Position numbers and translations under genes: made by a program | Notes under the pieces: generated by a model | What the model saw: the letters and a program-made list of their open reading frames with translations, nothing else | Told to the model about the DNA's origin: nothing | Databases searched by the model: none | NCBI RefSeq assembly: GCF_002934625.1 | Contig: NZ_PTJD01000013.1 | Location: 62,001 to 126,000, forward strand | DNA from: Kineococcus xinjiangensis | GTDB lineage: Bacteria > Actinomycetota > Actinomycetes > Actinomycetales > Kineococcaceae | Length of the DNA: 64,000 nucleotides | Direction: 5' to 3' | In this document: piece by piece, positions 49,549 through 54,852 of the stretch | Layout: the number at the start of each line of letters is the position of its first letter | Numbering within the stretch: the first letter of the stretch is position 1

Positions 49549-51510
49549 GTGCGCAGCATCCGGACCCGATTGGTCGCGAGCGTGCTCTGCGTCACCGTGA
49601 TCGTCCTCGCCGCCCTCACCGCCGCCATCGCCGTGCGCGCCGAGAGGATGGCCGAGGGCCAGACACGGCAGTACACGGAGGCGATCGCCGCGCAGCACGC
49701 CGAGGTGACCGGGGAGCGGCTGCGCGCCGCCCTGGCCGTCACCGCCGAGGTGGCCTCGGCCCTGCAGGCGCTGCAGCGCACCGGGGGCGTGCCCCGCGAA
49801 CAGGTGGACGCGATCCTCGAGGACTCCCTGCGCCAGCACCCCGGGTTCGTCGGCATGGGCACCATCTGGGAGCCCGACGCCTTCGACGGCCGCGACGCCG
49901 AGTACGCCGGGCACCCCTCCTCCGACGCCACCGGCCGGCTCATCCCGTACTGGTACTACGACGGCGGCGACCTCGCCGTCACCCCGCTGGTGGACTACGA
50001 GACCCCCGGCGCCGGTGACTGGTACCTCGTGCCGCGCGAGACCCTGCGCCAGACCGTCACCGAGCCCTACCACTACGAGGTGGCCGGCCAGGACGTCCTC
50101 ATGACCACCGCCGTGACGCCCATCGTCGCCGACGGGAGGTTCCTCGGTGCCGTGACGGTCGACATCGGCCTGGCAGCCCTCACCGAGGAGATCGGCGAGC
50201 TCACCCCGTACGGCACCGGCTACGCCGCGCTGATCAGCGACGCCGGGGCCGTCGTCGCCCACCCGGACCCCGAGCGCCTCGACGAGAAGCTGGCGGGCCC
50301 CTTCGGCGAACTCGCCACCGGGGTCGCCGCCGCCGGGAAGGTGGCCACCGTCCAGGGCCACGACGACCACCTCGACGGCGACGCCATCACCGCTGCCGCC
50401 CCCGTGCCGCTGACCGAGGGCGAGACGTGGAGCCTGGTGGTGAGCGCCCCGACCGAGCGCGCCCTGGCCGCCGCCGCCGACCTGCGCACCTCCACCGTGC
50501 TGCTCGGGCTCGTGGCGCTGCTGGTGATGGGCGTCGGCACCTGGGTCCTCGGCTCGCGGATCAGCCGTCCCGTCGTCGAGCTGCGCGACCGCCTCGTGGC
50601 GATCGCCGACGGCGACGGGGACCTGACCCAGCGCGTCGACGAGAGCCGTCGCGACGAGCTCGGTGCTCTCGGCGCCGCCTTCAACCGGTTCGTGTCGAAG
50701 ATCGCCTCGACCGTGGGGGCGATCGGTGCGCAGGCCGACCTGCTCGCCAGCACCTCCAGCGACCTCACCGGCATCGGCCAGCGCATGTCCACCGCCGCAC
50801 GGCAGGCCAGCGACCACGCCGACGGGCTGTCCGCCACGGCCGGCACCGTCAGCGACCACGTCGCGGGAGTCGCCGCCGGCACGGAGGAGATGGGCCTGAG
50901 CATCGGGGAGATCGCCCGCAGCACGTCGGAGGCGGCGCAGGTCGCGGCCACCGCCGTGGAGGCCTCGCAGGCCACCACGTCCGTCATGGCGGCGCTCGCC
51001 GACACCTCCGCCGAGATCAGCGGGGTGGTGCGGACCATCTCGGCCATCGCCGGGCAGACGAACCTGCTGGCCCTCAACGCGACCATCGAGGCGGCTCGCG
51101 CCGGCGACGCCGGTCGCGGCTTCGCGGTCGTCGCGAGCGAGGTCCGGGAGCTGGCGACCCAGACCGCGTCCGCCACGGAGGAGATCGAGGGTCGCATCAC
51201 CCGCCTGCAGACCGACGTCGACGGGGCCGTCACGGCCATCGCCCAGATCCGCGACGTCATCGAGCAGATCGACCAGATCCAGGGCGTCATCGCCGCCGCG
51301 GTGGAGGAGCAGGACGCCACCACCCGGGAGATGGCGCGCGGGGTGACCGAGGCCGCCAGCGGCACCAGCGAGATCGCGGGCAGCTTCGCCTCGATGGCCC
51401 ACGCCGCCACCGCCACCCGCGCGGGGGTCGAGGAGACCCTCGCGAGCGGCGAGCGCCTCGCCCGGGCCGCCGACGCGCTGCGCGGGCTGGTGGGCGGCTT
51501 CAAGGTCTGA
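49549..51510 (+). CDS. Cache-domain methyl-accepting chemotaxis protein
   Basis: The product is 653 residues from GTG 49549. [24 protein letters not shown] is the first membrane helix. A large extracellular dCache domain (~40-300) carries [69 protein letters not shown] and [37 protein letters not shown] is the second helix. HAMP and the signalling coiled coil follow, with tip [40 protein letters not shown]. Such Cache domains often bind amino acids, organic acids or amines. It lies 112 bases after the GGDEF gene, with no che genes nearby. Confidence 0.94.
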
Positions 51511-51547: not shown

Positions 51548-52132
51548 TCAGGCCTCGGGGGGCAGGTCGAGGGAGCGCTTGTAGTAGCCCCAGGGGAACG
51601 TCATCGTCTTCACGAGCGTCCAGCCCTCGGCCTCCATGCGGCGCCGGGCGCCGGGGCTCCACGGGTGGCGGTAGTGCTCCCACTGGACGTCGGATTCCTC
51701 CACCACGTGGAAGAGGGTTCCGTAGTCCACGAGTTCCCAGCCCTTGCGGCCGTGCTCGGTGAGGACGGCCATCTCGTCCAGGGAGGTGAGGGGGGAGAGG
51801 ACCTTGCGTTCGCGCGGGCCGGTCGTCTCCCCCGGGTCCGGGCGGCTGGGGGTGCCGAACCGCTGCTGGGCGGCCTGCTTGCTGACCCCGAGGAGCTTGC
51901 CGAGGGTGTCCCAGCTGTGGCCGGCGGCCCGGGCTCCGGCGGCCGCCTCGCGCAGCAGGCGACTGGTCTCCTCCGCCGCGACGCGGGTCGCGGCGACGAG
52001 CCGCAGGGCGGCCTCGGGATCGTCGGCGAGGGACTCGCGCATCCCTGCGGGCGTCGCGAGCACGGCCTCGGTGACGGCGTCGCGCAGGGCCTGGACCTCG
52101 GCGTCGGTGAGCAGCCCGGTCGTGGGGCTCAC
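51548..52132 (-). CDS. HTH protein with DUF4177-like C terminus
   Basis: The product is 194 residues from GTG 52132, overlapping the previous stop by four bases (GTGA). The HTH is GHSWDTLGKLLGVSKQAAQQRFG (~residues 69-92). The C-terminal ~90 residues contain LTSLDEMAVLTEHGRKGWELVDYGTLFHVVEESDVQWEHYRH, recalling DUF4177, a small beta-rich domain that measures variable text as W-E-x-V ... G-W-E-L. It is the third gene of an operon with two small membrane proteins and a promoter with twin palindromes at 52679-52723. It is the best candidate for the factor binding them. Confidence 0.82.
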   Translation of the reverse strand: MSPTTGLLTDAEVQALRDAVTEAVLATPAGMRESLADDPEAALRLVAATRVAAEETSRLLREAAAGARAAGHSWDTLGKLLGVSKQAAQQRFGTPSRPDPGETTGPRERKVLSPLTSLDEMAVLTEHGRKGWELVDYGTLFHVVEESDVQWEHYRHPWSPGARRRMEAEGWTLVKTMTFPWGYYKRSLDLPPEA

Positions 52133-52449
52133 GAAGGCTCCTCGCGGGGGCCGGTGGCGTCGCGCAGGGGCTCCAGGGCGTCGAGCGCAGCCCGGTCGCG
52201 GCGCTGCTGCTCGGCGTCGATCCGGCGGCGGCGGTGCCGGGCCGTCGCCAGGCGCAGGAGCACCAGTGCGACCAGCACGGCGACGGCGCCGCCGGTGACG
52301 AACCCCAGGGCGGTGCTGGCGACGTTGCCCCACGACCACCCCCCGCGCAGGGAGGAGACGAGGATCGCTCCGGCGAGGGCCACCGCCACGAGGACGGCCG
52401 GGGCGAGGAGACGGGTCCAGCGGGGACGGCGCGCGGTGGTCGTGCTCAT
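52129..52449 (-). CDS. small membrane protein
   Basis: The product is 106 residues from ATG 52449, overlapping the upstream stop by four bases. LLAPAVLVAVALAGAILVSSL and VASTALGFVTGGAVAVLVALVLLRL form two membrane helices (residues ~14-65). The C-terminal half is a charged, helical tail (RRRRIDAEQQRRDRAALDALEPLRDATGPREEPS). It resembles no family I know. It is the middle gene of a three-gene operon with tight overlaps at both ends, so it is probably made in step with the other two. Confidence 0.75.
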   Translation of the reverse strand: MSTTTARRPRWTRLLAPAVLVAVALAGAILVSSLRGGWSWGNVASTALGFVTGGAVAVLVALVLLRLATARHRRRRIDAEQQRRDRAALDALEPLRDATGPREEPS

Positions 52450-52676
52450 GCGCCGGTCCCGGGGGCTGACGCGGCGGCGGCGGCGCGGGCGTGGCGGCGC
52501 TGCACGCCGACGGACCAGCCGGCTGCGACACCGGCGCCGGCGAGTGCGACCAGGACGAGGACGGAGCCCAGGGTGCTCTCGGGGCGCAGCAGCAGCACGA
52601 GCGAGGCGACGGCGAGGGGCAGGAAGGCGAGGGGGCTCACGCGGGAGGGAGTGGACGGCTTCGTCGAGGAGGGCAT
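52446..52676 (-). CDS. small membrane protein, first gene of an HTH operon
   Basis: The product is 76 residues from ATG 52676. It has two hydrophobic stretches (LAFLPLAVASLVLLLR and LGSVLVLVALAGAGVAAGWSVG) and a short Arg/Ala tail. No family is recognised. The start codon is seven bases after a TCTACT box with TTGACG 17 bases further upstream, and there is no ribosome site, so it is probably leaderless. It overlaps the next gene by four bases. With the middle gene it could form a small membrane complex, sensed by or controlling the HTH protein. Confidence 0.72.
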   Translation of the reverse strand: MPSSTKPSTPSRVSPLAFLPLAVASLVLLLRPESTLGSVLVLVALAGAGVAAGWSVGVQRRHARAAAAASAPGTGA

Positions 52677-52678
52677 GC

Positions 52679-52723
52679 GTCAAGTAGAACTTGACACCAC
52701 CCGGTCGTCAAGCACTTCTTGAC
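52679..52723 (-). promoter_or_regulatory. twin GTCAAG-N5-CTTGAC operators over a leaderless promoter
   Basis: Two 17-base inverted repeats lie at 52679-52695 and 52707-52723, 28 bases centre to centre. On the minus strand TTGACG (52711-52706) and TCTACT (52688-52683) form a -35/-10 pair with a 17-base spacer. ATG 52676 lies where transcription should begin. One palindrome covers the -10, the other the -35. Confidence 0.75.
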
Positions 52724-52772: not shown

Positions 52773-54716
52773 CTACGGCCCCGCGGGAACCCGCCGCGCC
52801 GCGTCCCGCGGCTCCAGCTGCTGGCGCAGCAGCCACGGCTGCACGTCCTCCGCGGGCATCGGCCGGGACAGCAGGTACCCCTGCATCTCGTCGCAGCCCA
52901 TCTCCGTCAGGCGCTGGCGCACGTCGCTGGACTCCACGCCCTCGGCGACGACGGTCAGGCCCAGGTCGTGGCCCAGCCCCACCACGGAGCGCGCCACCGC
53001 CTCGTCCTTCTCGCAGGTCATGAGGTGCGTGACGAAGCCCCGGTCGATCTTGAGGCTGCGCACGGGCAGCGTCTTCAGGTAGGACAGCGACGTGTAGCCG
53101 GCGCCGAAGTCGTCGATCGACACGGAGATCCCCATGGTCTGCAGGCGGCGCAGCGTCTCCGCGGCGCGCACGGGGTCCACCATGACGGCCGTCTCCGTGA
53201 TCTCCAGCTCGAGGGCCGTGCCCGGCAGCTCCGCCTCGGCGAGCAGGTCCACGACCTGCTCGGGGAAGCCCGGCTCCAGCAGGGTCGGCGGGGCGATGTT
53301 GACGGCGACGTCGACGTCCCAGCCCAGTGCCCGCCACGCCGCGCACTGGTGCACCGCCTGGCGCAGCACCCACGTGGTGAGGGGGCGCAGCAGCGCGGTG
53401 CGCTCGGCCATCGGCACGAACGCGCCCGGAGGCAGGAGCCCCCGCTCGGGGTGCTCCCAGCGGACCAGGGCCTCGAAGCCCACCGTGCGTCCCTCCCGCA
53501 GCGACGCCTTCGGCTGGTAGTGCAGCCGCAACTGCCCCACGTCGATGGCGTGGCGCAGCTCCGACAGCAGCCCGAGCATCTGCGCGTCGTGGGGGTCGTC
53601 GGCGAAGTCGTAGCGGCGGGCACCGCCACCGGAGCGCTTCGCCTGGTACATGGCGACGTCCGCCTGCCGCAGCAGCACGTCGAAGTCGCCGCCGACGCCC
53701 GCCACGGCGACCCCGATGCTGACGCCCACCTCGAGGGTGACGCGCTCCACCGTGAAGGGACGGCTCAGCGCCGCCACGATCGCCTCGGCCCGCCGCAGCT
53801 CCAGCCCGGCGGGGGCGGGATCCGTCACCAGGACCGCGAACTCGTCCCCGCCGAGGCGGACCACGACGTCGTCGGGACGCACCGCCGACCGCAGCGCCGC
53901 GGCCACCTGCACGAGGAGCTCGTCGCCGACGGCGTGGCCGAGCGTGTCGTTGACCGTCTTGAAGCCGTCGAGGTCCAGCAGCAGCAGTGCCACGTCGCGC
54001 GGCCCGCCGCGACGGCGCGCGCCGGACAGCGCCGCCGTGCCGGCGCGCGTCAGCATCGCCCGGTTCCCCAGTCCCGTCAGCGCGTCGTGCAGGGCCTCCT
54101 GCTCGCGCCGCAGCACCCTGCGGCGCGCCCCGATGCCGGCGGCCGCGAGGACGAGCGCGAGGAAGGCGGCGCCGCCGTAGAGGTTGTGTGCCGTGGTGGT
54201 CAGCGACGTGGCCAGGGCGTCCTCGGGGAGCAGGACCTCCGCGACGAGCCCGCTGGGACCGCCGGCGGCCTGCGGCGCCACGAGCACCGTGGCGGTCGCC
54301 TCGTCGCGGCCCTCCTCGCGCTCGAACTCCACGACGGGCTGCCCGTGCAGCACCTCGACCAGGCCGGTGCGCTCGGCCGCGCTCAGCGGCCCGACGTTGC
54401 GCTGGTCGCTGTAGACCAGGTGACCGTCGGGGTGCCAGACCTGCAGGCCGATGAGCCGGCCCTCCGAGCGCAGCCGCTCGACACCGGCGTCGAGGGCGCG
54501 CCGCGCCTCGGGCGCGAGGTCCACGCCCGCGGAACCGGGCGCGGGCAGGACGGGCTCCAGGAGGAGCTCGCTGATGAGCTCTGCGTCCGCCACGACCTGC
54601 TCGAGGGCCGCGTCGTGCGTCTTCCGCTCCAGGCTGACCGCCAGGGCCGCGACGGCGAGGACCGACAGGACCAGTGCGACACCGAAGATCCGCCAGGACG
54701 TGAGGGCGCGGAGCAC
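52773..54716 (-). CDS. GGDEF-EAL bifunctional c-di-GMP enzyme
   Basis: The product is 647 residues from GTG 54716, with GGAGG upstream. One membrane helix (WRIFGVALVLSVLAVAALAVSL), a periplasmic-side sensor (~30-165) and a second helix (YGGAAFLALVLAAAGIG) precede GGDEF (~205-370) with RLGGDEF and an RPDD inhibitory site. EAL (~385-640) has VGFEALVRW, ELEITETAVM, DDFGAGYTSL, KIDRGFV and VAEGVES. Both domains keep their motifs, so it could make and break c-di-GMP; direction would depend on the sensor. A 29-residue longer frame lacks a ribosome site. Confidence 0.94.
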   Translation of the reverse strand: MLRALTSWRIFGVALVLSVLAVAALAVSLERKTHDAALEQVVADAELISELLLEPVLPAPGSAGVDLAPEARRALDAGVERLRSEGRLIGLQVWHPDGHLVYSDQRNVGPLSAAERTGLVEVLHGQPVVEFEREEGRDEATATVLVAPQAAGGPSGLVAEVLLPEDALATSLTTTAHNLYGGAAFLALVLAAAGIGARRRVLRREQEALHDALTGLGNRAMLTRAGTAALSGARRRGGPRDVALLLLDLDGFKTVNDTLGHAVGDELLVQVAAALRSAVRPDDVVVRLGGDEFAVLVTDPAPAGLELRRAEAIVAALSRPFTVERVTLEVGVSIGVAVAGVGGDFDVLLRQADVAMYQAKRSGGGARRYDFADDPHDAQMLGLLSELRHAIDVGQLRLHYQPKASLREGRTVGFEALVRWEHPERGLLPPGAFVPMAERTALLRPLTTWVLRQAVHQCAAWRALGWDVDVAVNIAPPTLLEPGFPEQVVDLLAEAELPGTALELEITETAVMVDPVRAAETLRRLQTMGISVSIDDFGAGYTSLSYLKTLPVRSLKIDRGFVTHLMTCEKDEAVARSVVGLGHDLGLTVVAEGVESSDVRQRLTEMGCDEMQGYLLSRPMPAEDVQPWLLRQQLEPRDAARRVPAGP

Positions 54717-54852
54717 CTCGCCACCTCCGCATCCCGGTCCGCCGATGGACGGGCGCCTCCCGTCCACCAGGAGATTCGGCAACCGCCGGCCCCGGCTGGA
54801 CACGGGCTCCCGGGCCTCACCCGGTCGGAGCAGCGCCGCACCCGCGCCACGC

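Follow-up and report, generated by a model that had tools for sequence, protein, structure and literature searches.

A probable self-repressing, leaderless operon under twin palindromic operators in Kineococcus xinjiangensis, and its relation to the ClpC2 and RelI HTH family

Introduction

In mycobacteria, ClpC2 gives protection from cyclomarin A. In Mycobacterium tuberculosis, the ribosome-cutting toxin RelS is neutralised by RelI. Pull-down, reporter and gel shift experiments showed that mycobacterial ClpC2 (Rv2667) binds CGTCAAC-n5-GTTGACG, and ClpC2 represses its own gene until cyclomarin A is bound to it (Taylor et al. 2023, PMC10030653). The authors noted that the site is repeated, that it overlaps the -35 and -10 elements and that the transcript is likely leaderless. 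DNA binding was assigned to the C-terminal Clp-repeat domain (R185/R189) and dimerisation to the N-terminal domain, and the crystal fragments are composed of residues 4-72 and 94-252. The R57A mutation abolished dimerisation and weakened DNA binding; its derepression was 4.6-fold, higher than the 2.0-fold of R188A/R192A (PMC10030653). RelI was reported to be homologous to the HTH of ClpC2 (Han et al. 2026, PMC13284704). In the same report, HTH-DUF2812 fusions appear among the RelI homologues, typically as stand-alone genes and with no function given, and neither inverted repeats nor DNA-binding evidence was found for M. tuberculosis RelI (PMC13284704). The comparison presented here points to one shared HTH as the part that reads DNA and yields a testable sequence rule.

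Results

The window is the whole stretch of DNA analysed, 64,000 nt of Kineococcus xinjiangensis (GCF_002934625.1, NZ_PTJD01000013.1, positions 62,001 to 126,000, forward strand). The two copies of GTCAAG-N5-CTTGAC described in the first-pass annotation are exact, at 52679-52695 and 52707-52723. The features of the locus are as follows.

52707 to 52723, minus strand: operator 1, GTCAAGAAGTGCTTGAC; its right half provides the -35 TTGACG (52711-52706), found at the same position in relatives
52679 to 52695, minus strand: operator 2, GTCAAGTTCTACTTGAC, holding the predicted -10 TCTACT (52688-52683), 17 bp from the -35
52676, minus strand: predicted +1, the A of the gene A ATG (leaderless start), from the operator-ATG distance in relatives and the upstream in-frame stop
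52446 to 52676, minus strand: gene A, 76 aa, two predicted TM segments, without tail motif
52129 to 52449, minus strand: gene B, 106 aa, two predicted TM segments, conserved tail LDALEPL
51548 to 52132, minus strand: gene C, 194-aa regulator with N-terminal HTH and C-terminal DUF2812/DUF4177-like domain
51854 to 51976, minus strand: predicted HTH of C, about residues 53-93, from a profile match and the structure model
51551 to 51820, minus strand: C-terminal domain of C, residues 105-194, with the pattern GW...WEH...GW...FPW.Y.KR

The minus strand reads GTCAAGAAGTGCTTGAC-GACCGGGTGGT-GTCAAGTTCTACTTGAC-gc-ATG, followed by the three genes. The palindrome centres are 28 bp apart, and the downstream palindrome stops 2 nt short of the gene A ATG. 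Gene A and the operators make up the span 52446-52723; the operon itself runs on to 51548. The A/B and B/C overlaps are 4 bp each (ATGA and GTGA), and the earlier description of an operon that ends in an HTH protein with four-base overlaps throughout was correct. In searches of Pfam and NCBIfam, none of the three proteins reached the cut-off of any family. Beyond C lies a convergent chemoreceptor-like gene (49549-51510, plus strand). On the other side, a GGDEF-EAL gene (52773-54803, minus strand) on the same strand as the operon ends 50 bp upstream of operator 1, and no terminator was detected between the two. This upstream neighbour is not kept in relatives of the operon.

A genome scan for more copies, proposed along with the first description, returned no further site. 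The exact GTCAAG-N5-CTTGAC occurs in the whole 4.6 Mb genome only at these two sites, and the pattern read backwards, used as a control, does not occur. The looser GTCAA-N7-TTGAC found the same two sites only, with two occurrences of its control pattern. A scan allowing two mismatches was rejected as background only (150 sites against 169 for the control).

The distance from the last -10 base to the A of the ATG (52676) is 7 nt, as a leaderless start predicts. An in-frame TGA stands immediately 5' of this ATG, and no Shine-Dalgarno sequence was found ahead of it. The strict promoter scan gave no entry at the operon, and TCTACT is a poor match to TAnnnT. The -10 was accepted despite its weakness because relatives keep this register, many of them with a good TAnnGT. 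Leaderless transcription, in which the gene A mRNA is predicted to begin at its own ATG, is the simplest reading because of this -10/ATG register and the operator-ATG gap of 2-3 nt in all twin C-family and ClpC2-type loci counted. The first-pass placement of the palindromes over the -35 and -10, with a predicted start at the ATG of the 76-residue membrane protein, thus agrees with both the register and the relatives, although the -10 is weak. A role of the palindromes as RNA hairpins was set aside since both lie upstream of the predicted +1.

The profile of C relatives matches RelI (PDB 9SDC) with an E value of 1.4e-15 and the ClpC2 Rv2667 fragment (8ADA) with an E value of 0.009. The predicted recognition helix of C, at about residues 85-92 by sequence and model, lies inside SKQAAQQRF. 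R68 of C is invariant in C relatives and aligns with R57 of ClpC2. In fold searches, the N-terminal part of the C model draws mostly HTH proteins (Fis, DeoR, Hin, sigma region 4). Neither C (P0003) nor 13 aligned members matched Clp_N, for which a ClpC2 orthologue scores 72 bits as comparison. The PadR regulators found beside DUF2812 proteins were considered as a family for C, but no PadR winged-helix match was obtained for C (Pfam and NCBIfam) or for its relatives (Pfam).

The C-terminal domain of C was modelled with an AlphaFold pLDDT of 94.5, and its sequence points weakly to DUF2812. The PF11193 match of C has an E value of 0.1, below the Pfam cut-off. The domain resembles one DUF2812 two-TM protein in BLAST (E 6e-5), and hhalign against DUF2812 gave a probability of 59 and an E value of 9e-5. 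The DUF2812 reference consisted of three actinobacterial PF11193 matches, as PF11193 matched in none of the control genomes. Foldseek and VIA-align, run with the whole C model or with the C-terminal domain alone, gave no convincing fold; the best Z was about 5, in the common range of the tool.

Relatives of C were collected from 395 sampled genomes of the class, the window's own genome included, and full-length relatives were present in 15. All 15 loci carry TCAA-N7-TTGA directly before the start codon of the first gene, 13 as twin sites and two as single palindromes. Single palindromes are seen in L008 and L178. The C-family loci (53,211 bases) contain 28 copies of the motif, every one at the operator, where shuffles expect 0.035 in all. 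The gap inside each palindrome is constant, and the distance between the palindromes varies from 27 to 30 centre to centre. The operator-ATG gap is 2-3 nt in 22/22 twin C-family loci and in 58/58 ClpC2-type loci; two extra rows of this table are reverse-strand readings outside these counts. The genes upstream of the operator vary among relatives, and the operator, the ATG and the operon are constant.

The opposite direction, from operator to protein, was taken with an unbiased scan in which GTDB contigs were searched for pairs of GTCAA-N7-TTGAC separated by a spacer of any length from 6 to 22. The scan gave at least 118 stretches, and 80 loci were read. Among these 80 loci of the matches listed, the spacer is 11 or 12 in 73, and a gene for the same HTH (profile E <1e-5), mostly ClpC2, lies directly downstream in 68. 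Of the remaining 12, three reach the end of the stretch (L054, L076, L113), L052 and L064 carry a variant HTH in the second gene, L080 is alike in the first gene, and six are unexplained. The consensus of the ClpC2 class is GTCAACnnnnnGTTGAC-N11/12-GTCAACCTAnnGTTGAC-gcATG, where GTCAACCTAnnGTTGAC stands in the register of operator 2. The first-palindrome TTGAC is followed after 17-18 bp by TAnnGT, whose last base precedes the A of the start codon by 7 nt.

The innermost (sixth) base of the operator half-site is G at the C operon, unlike the C at ClpC2, and it follows the recognition helix. With the helix V..QAAQK, the sixth base is C in 198/200 half-sites. With V..QAAQQ, found in C relatives, it is G in 29/32, and QAV always goes with C. 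Helix residue and sixth base agree in this way in 79/81 loci. The trait was defined post hoc, and its two supported independent changes on the tree are too few for significance. Two genomes (G004, G432) possess both a C operon with a GTCAAG pair and clpC2 with a GTCAAC pair, and one C-operon half-site of G432 has T. In three others (G002, G005, G142), the C-operon pair is the only such pair of sites. We infer that the sixth base, G or C, keeps the switch of C apart from ClpC2 where both occur.

A small TM protein is encoded first in the C relatives whose first gene was read, except for L057 and L175, in which the HTH gene itself is first. The switch can thus do without the membrane partner. 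In nearly all relatives with the TM gene first, C overlaps it by about 4 bp. The TM part diverges fast, while the tail is conserved: one group carries LDxLEPL, another WLPSRDG. When B was compared with its equivalent in the closest relative, BLAST picked up similarity in the tail only. The window operon, with its two TM genes A and B, is unusual, since most relatives have one. Gene A has no detectable relative and no tail motif. No similarity to known toxins was found for A, B or their relatives. The conserved tail suggests that a membrane partner carrying it probably controls C.

RelI-like loci gave a mixed result. L014 and L016 (reverse complement, about 1132-1181) were observed to carry twin GTCAA-N7-TTGAC operators immediately ahead of genes for a BrnT/RelS-like toxin and a RelI-like HTH protein; the operator is followed within a few nt by GTG starts. 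The L014 toxin matches PF04365 with an E value of 3e-7, below the Pfam cut-off. At class level, one palindrome was present in 3/18 RelI-like loci and an exact twin in 0/18; L183, L186 and L187 each combine a clear palindrome with a degenerate one. Most RelI-like loci are without such sites, in agreement with the statement on M. tuberculosis (PMC13284704). Therefore, the claim of RelI-type autoregulation is limited to L014 and L016.

Discussion

The analysis indicates, with a probability of roughly 0.75, that C represses its own leaderless operon as a dimer, belongs to the ClpC2/RelI-type HTH family and has a membrane partner as probable controller. According to the proposed mechanism, C would dimerise and bind each palindrome through its N-terminal HTH. 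Two dimers on the -35 and the -10 would exclude RNA polymerase, so that the operon would repress itself, as suggested by ClpC2 and by the conservation of the operators. The mRNA would begin at the gene A ATG, and the operator would fill all the space up to the start codon, leaving no leader. Its own operon appears to be the only target of C because the genome holds no other site, and the output would be the small membrane proteins and C itself. The innermost operator base would insulate the switch from ClpC2. The tail of the membrane partner may dock on the C-terminal, DUF2812-like domain of C and thereby couple repression to the membrane, so that C would be held or released upon an envelope signal. 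This docking is the least secure step. The first-pass annotation had proposed a self-repressing, membrane-sensing circuit. Its self-repressing part, at a leaderless promoter, is well supported, since the operator travels with the HTH family across Actinomycetes and ClpC2 is a precedent; the membrane-sensing part goes no further than a reasonable reading of the two-TM partner and its conserved tail.

ClpC2 and C share the type of HTH and twin palindromes with 6-bp arms and a 5-bp gap over the -35 and -10. In both cases, the ATG follows 2-3 nt past the operator and the transcript is presumed to be leaderless; self-repression is published for ClpC2 and deduced for C. The two proteins differ at the C-terminal end, where ClpC2 has Clp_N repeats that bind cyclomarin A and C has the DUF2812-like domain. 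Besides, clpC2 is the first gene after its operator, whereas C lies downstream of membrane protein genes. Since C has the helix and the operator without Clp repeats, the N-terminal HTH is likely the part that reads DNA, rather than the Clp domain proposed for ClpC2. By alignment to an orthologue (L053), the corresponding helix of ClpC2, TKQAAQKRF, falls at about residues 73-81 and is in neither crystal fragment. The greater derepression in R57A than in R188A/R192A, together with the invariant aligned arginine in C relatives, is consistent with the HTH as reader.

C is like RelI in its homologous HTH, and 9SDC is the nearest solved relative of that HTH. Unlike the short RelI antitoxins, C has 194 aa, and its neighbours are TM proteins with no match to a RelS/BrnT-like toxin. 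C probably belongs among the HTH-DUF2812 fusions of the RelI homologues, as judged by its profile match to RelI; its operon differs from the published fusions by the coupled TM gene and the conserved operators. Two-TM DUF2812 proteins (for example L199) have a similar soluble domain joined to a two-TM part in one chain, whereas the window operon encodes the TM part separately and links the soluble domain to the HTH. The similarity is weak.

Other explanations of the palindromes were weighed against self-repression by C. Another, global regulator such as a ClpC2 paralogue might bind them with C not being the reader, as ClpC2 reads a nearly identical sequence (PMC10030653). This is unlikely, because the only two sites of the genome stand on the operon of C itself and the GTCAAG/CTTGAC flavour tracks the recognition helix of C, just as the other flavour tracks that of ClpC2. 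In the both-gene genomes checked, each gene has its own flavour, and in G002, G005 and G142 the C-operon pair stands alone. C might be an activator and not a repressor. Activation in the manner of MerR, with CTTGAC-N11-GTCAAG as a dyad across the spacer, could be read from the inner half-sites, which likewise make up an inverted repeat that flanks the -35/-10 spacer. Against this very unlikely arrangement are the constant gap within the palindromes at a variable distance between them, the existence of single palindromes, the normal spacer of 17 bp and the fact that ClpC2 is a repressor.

A toxin-antitoxin-like pair, in which the small TM protein would be the toxin and C its partner, is suggested by RelI as the nearest solved relative, by the twin operator before the BrnT/RelS-like toxin gene in L014 and L016 and by small TM proteins being sometimes toxic upon overproduction. 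However, A, B and their relatives are unlike known toxins, the conserved part is the tail and not the membrane part, and some C relatives lack a TM gene before C, which makes such a pair improbable. The operon could also be expressed mainly by read-through from the GGDEF-EAL gene, which shares the strand of the operon and stops at 52773, with no terminator found between the two; the palindromes would then be incidental. This is highly improbable because the upstream genes differ among relatives while the operator, the ATG and the operon are fixed.

Judged from sequence, the window operon is a member of a widespread actinobacterial switch, one form of which, ClpC2, is already known. New here are the variant of an HTH-DUF2812-like protein with a membrane protein, the argument for the HTH as reader and the hypothesis on operator specificity. 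More broadly, and somewhat more probably than otherwise, the HTH, the twin operator and the leaderless start may form a portable autorepression cassette of Actinomycetes. Its partners would number at least four: the Clp repeats of ClpC2, the DUF2812-like domain plus membrane protein of the window, toxins of the RelS type, and a large unclassified protein that precedes a variant small HTH protein (L052, L064). In such a cassette, the ClpC2 helix at about 73-81 would read the DNA, and the innermost base would be set by one or two residues of the helix, K/Q in QAAQ[KQ]R and A/V in QA[AV], so that paralogous switches stay separate. For HTH-DUF2812-like regulators with a membrane partner, the study puts forward a first hypothesis of function. 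The comparison also suggests autoregulation for some RelS-RelI-like operons and provides a natural set of compact, predicted leaderless promoters with distinct operator flavours.

Several further loci were observed. L052, L064 and L080 have twin operators, an ATG 2-3 nt on and a protein of >420 aa; in L080, the N-terminal part of this protein gave no clear Pfam family. The large protein of L052 and L064 is followed by a small variant HTH protein with SW..VA..AGT[ST][RK]QAAWSRW. This type may be a further partner of the same switch. In L109 and L121 (Nocardia), a methyltransferase-like gene begins about 30 nt past the twin sites and no HTH gene is close by; they perhaps represent a regulon target outside the autoregulated operon. 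In the alphaproteobacterium Erythrobacter (L061:6006-6070), an HTH-DUF2812-like gene is accompanied by three GTCAA-N7-TTGAC sites, 25 and 22 bp apart; therefore, the family and the operator extend past Actinomycetes. L067, L116 and L120 encode short HTH proteins with the helix GLTKQGAQQRF and carry twin or triple sites with a tighter spacing of 23-25 bp.
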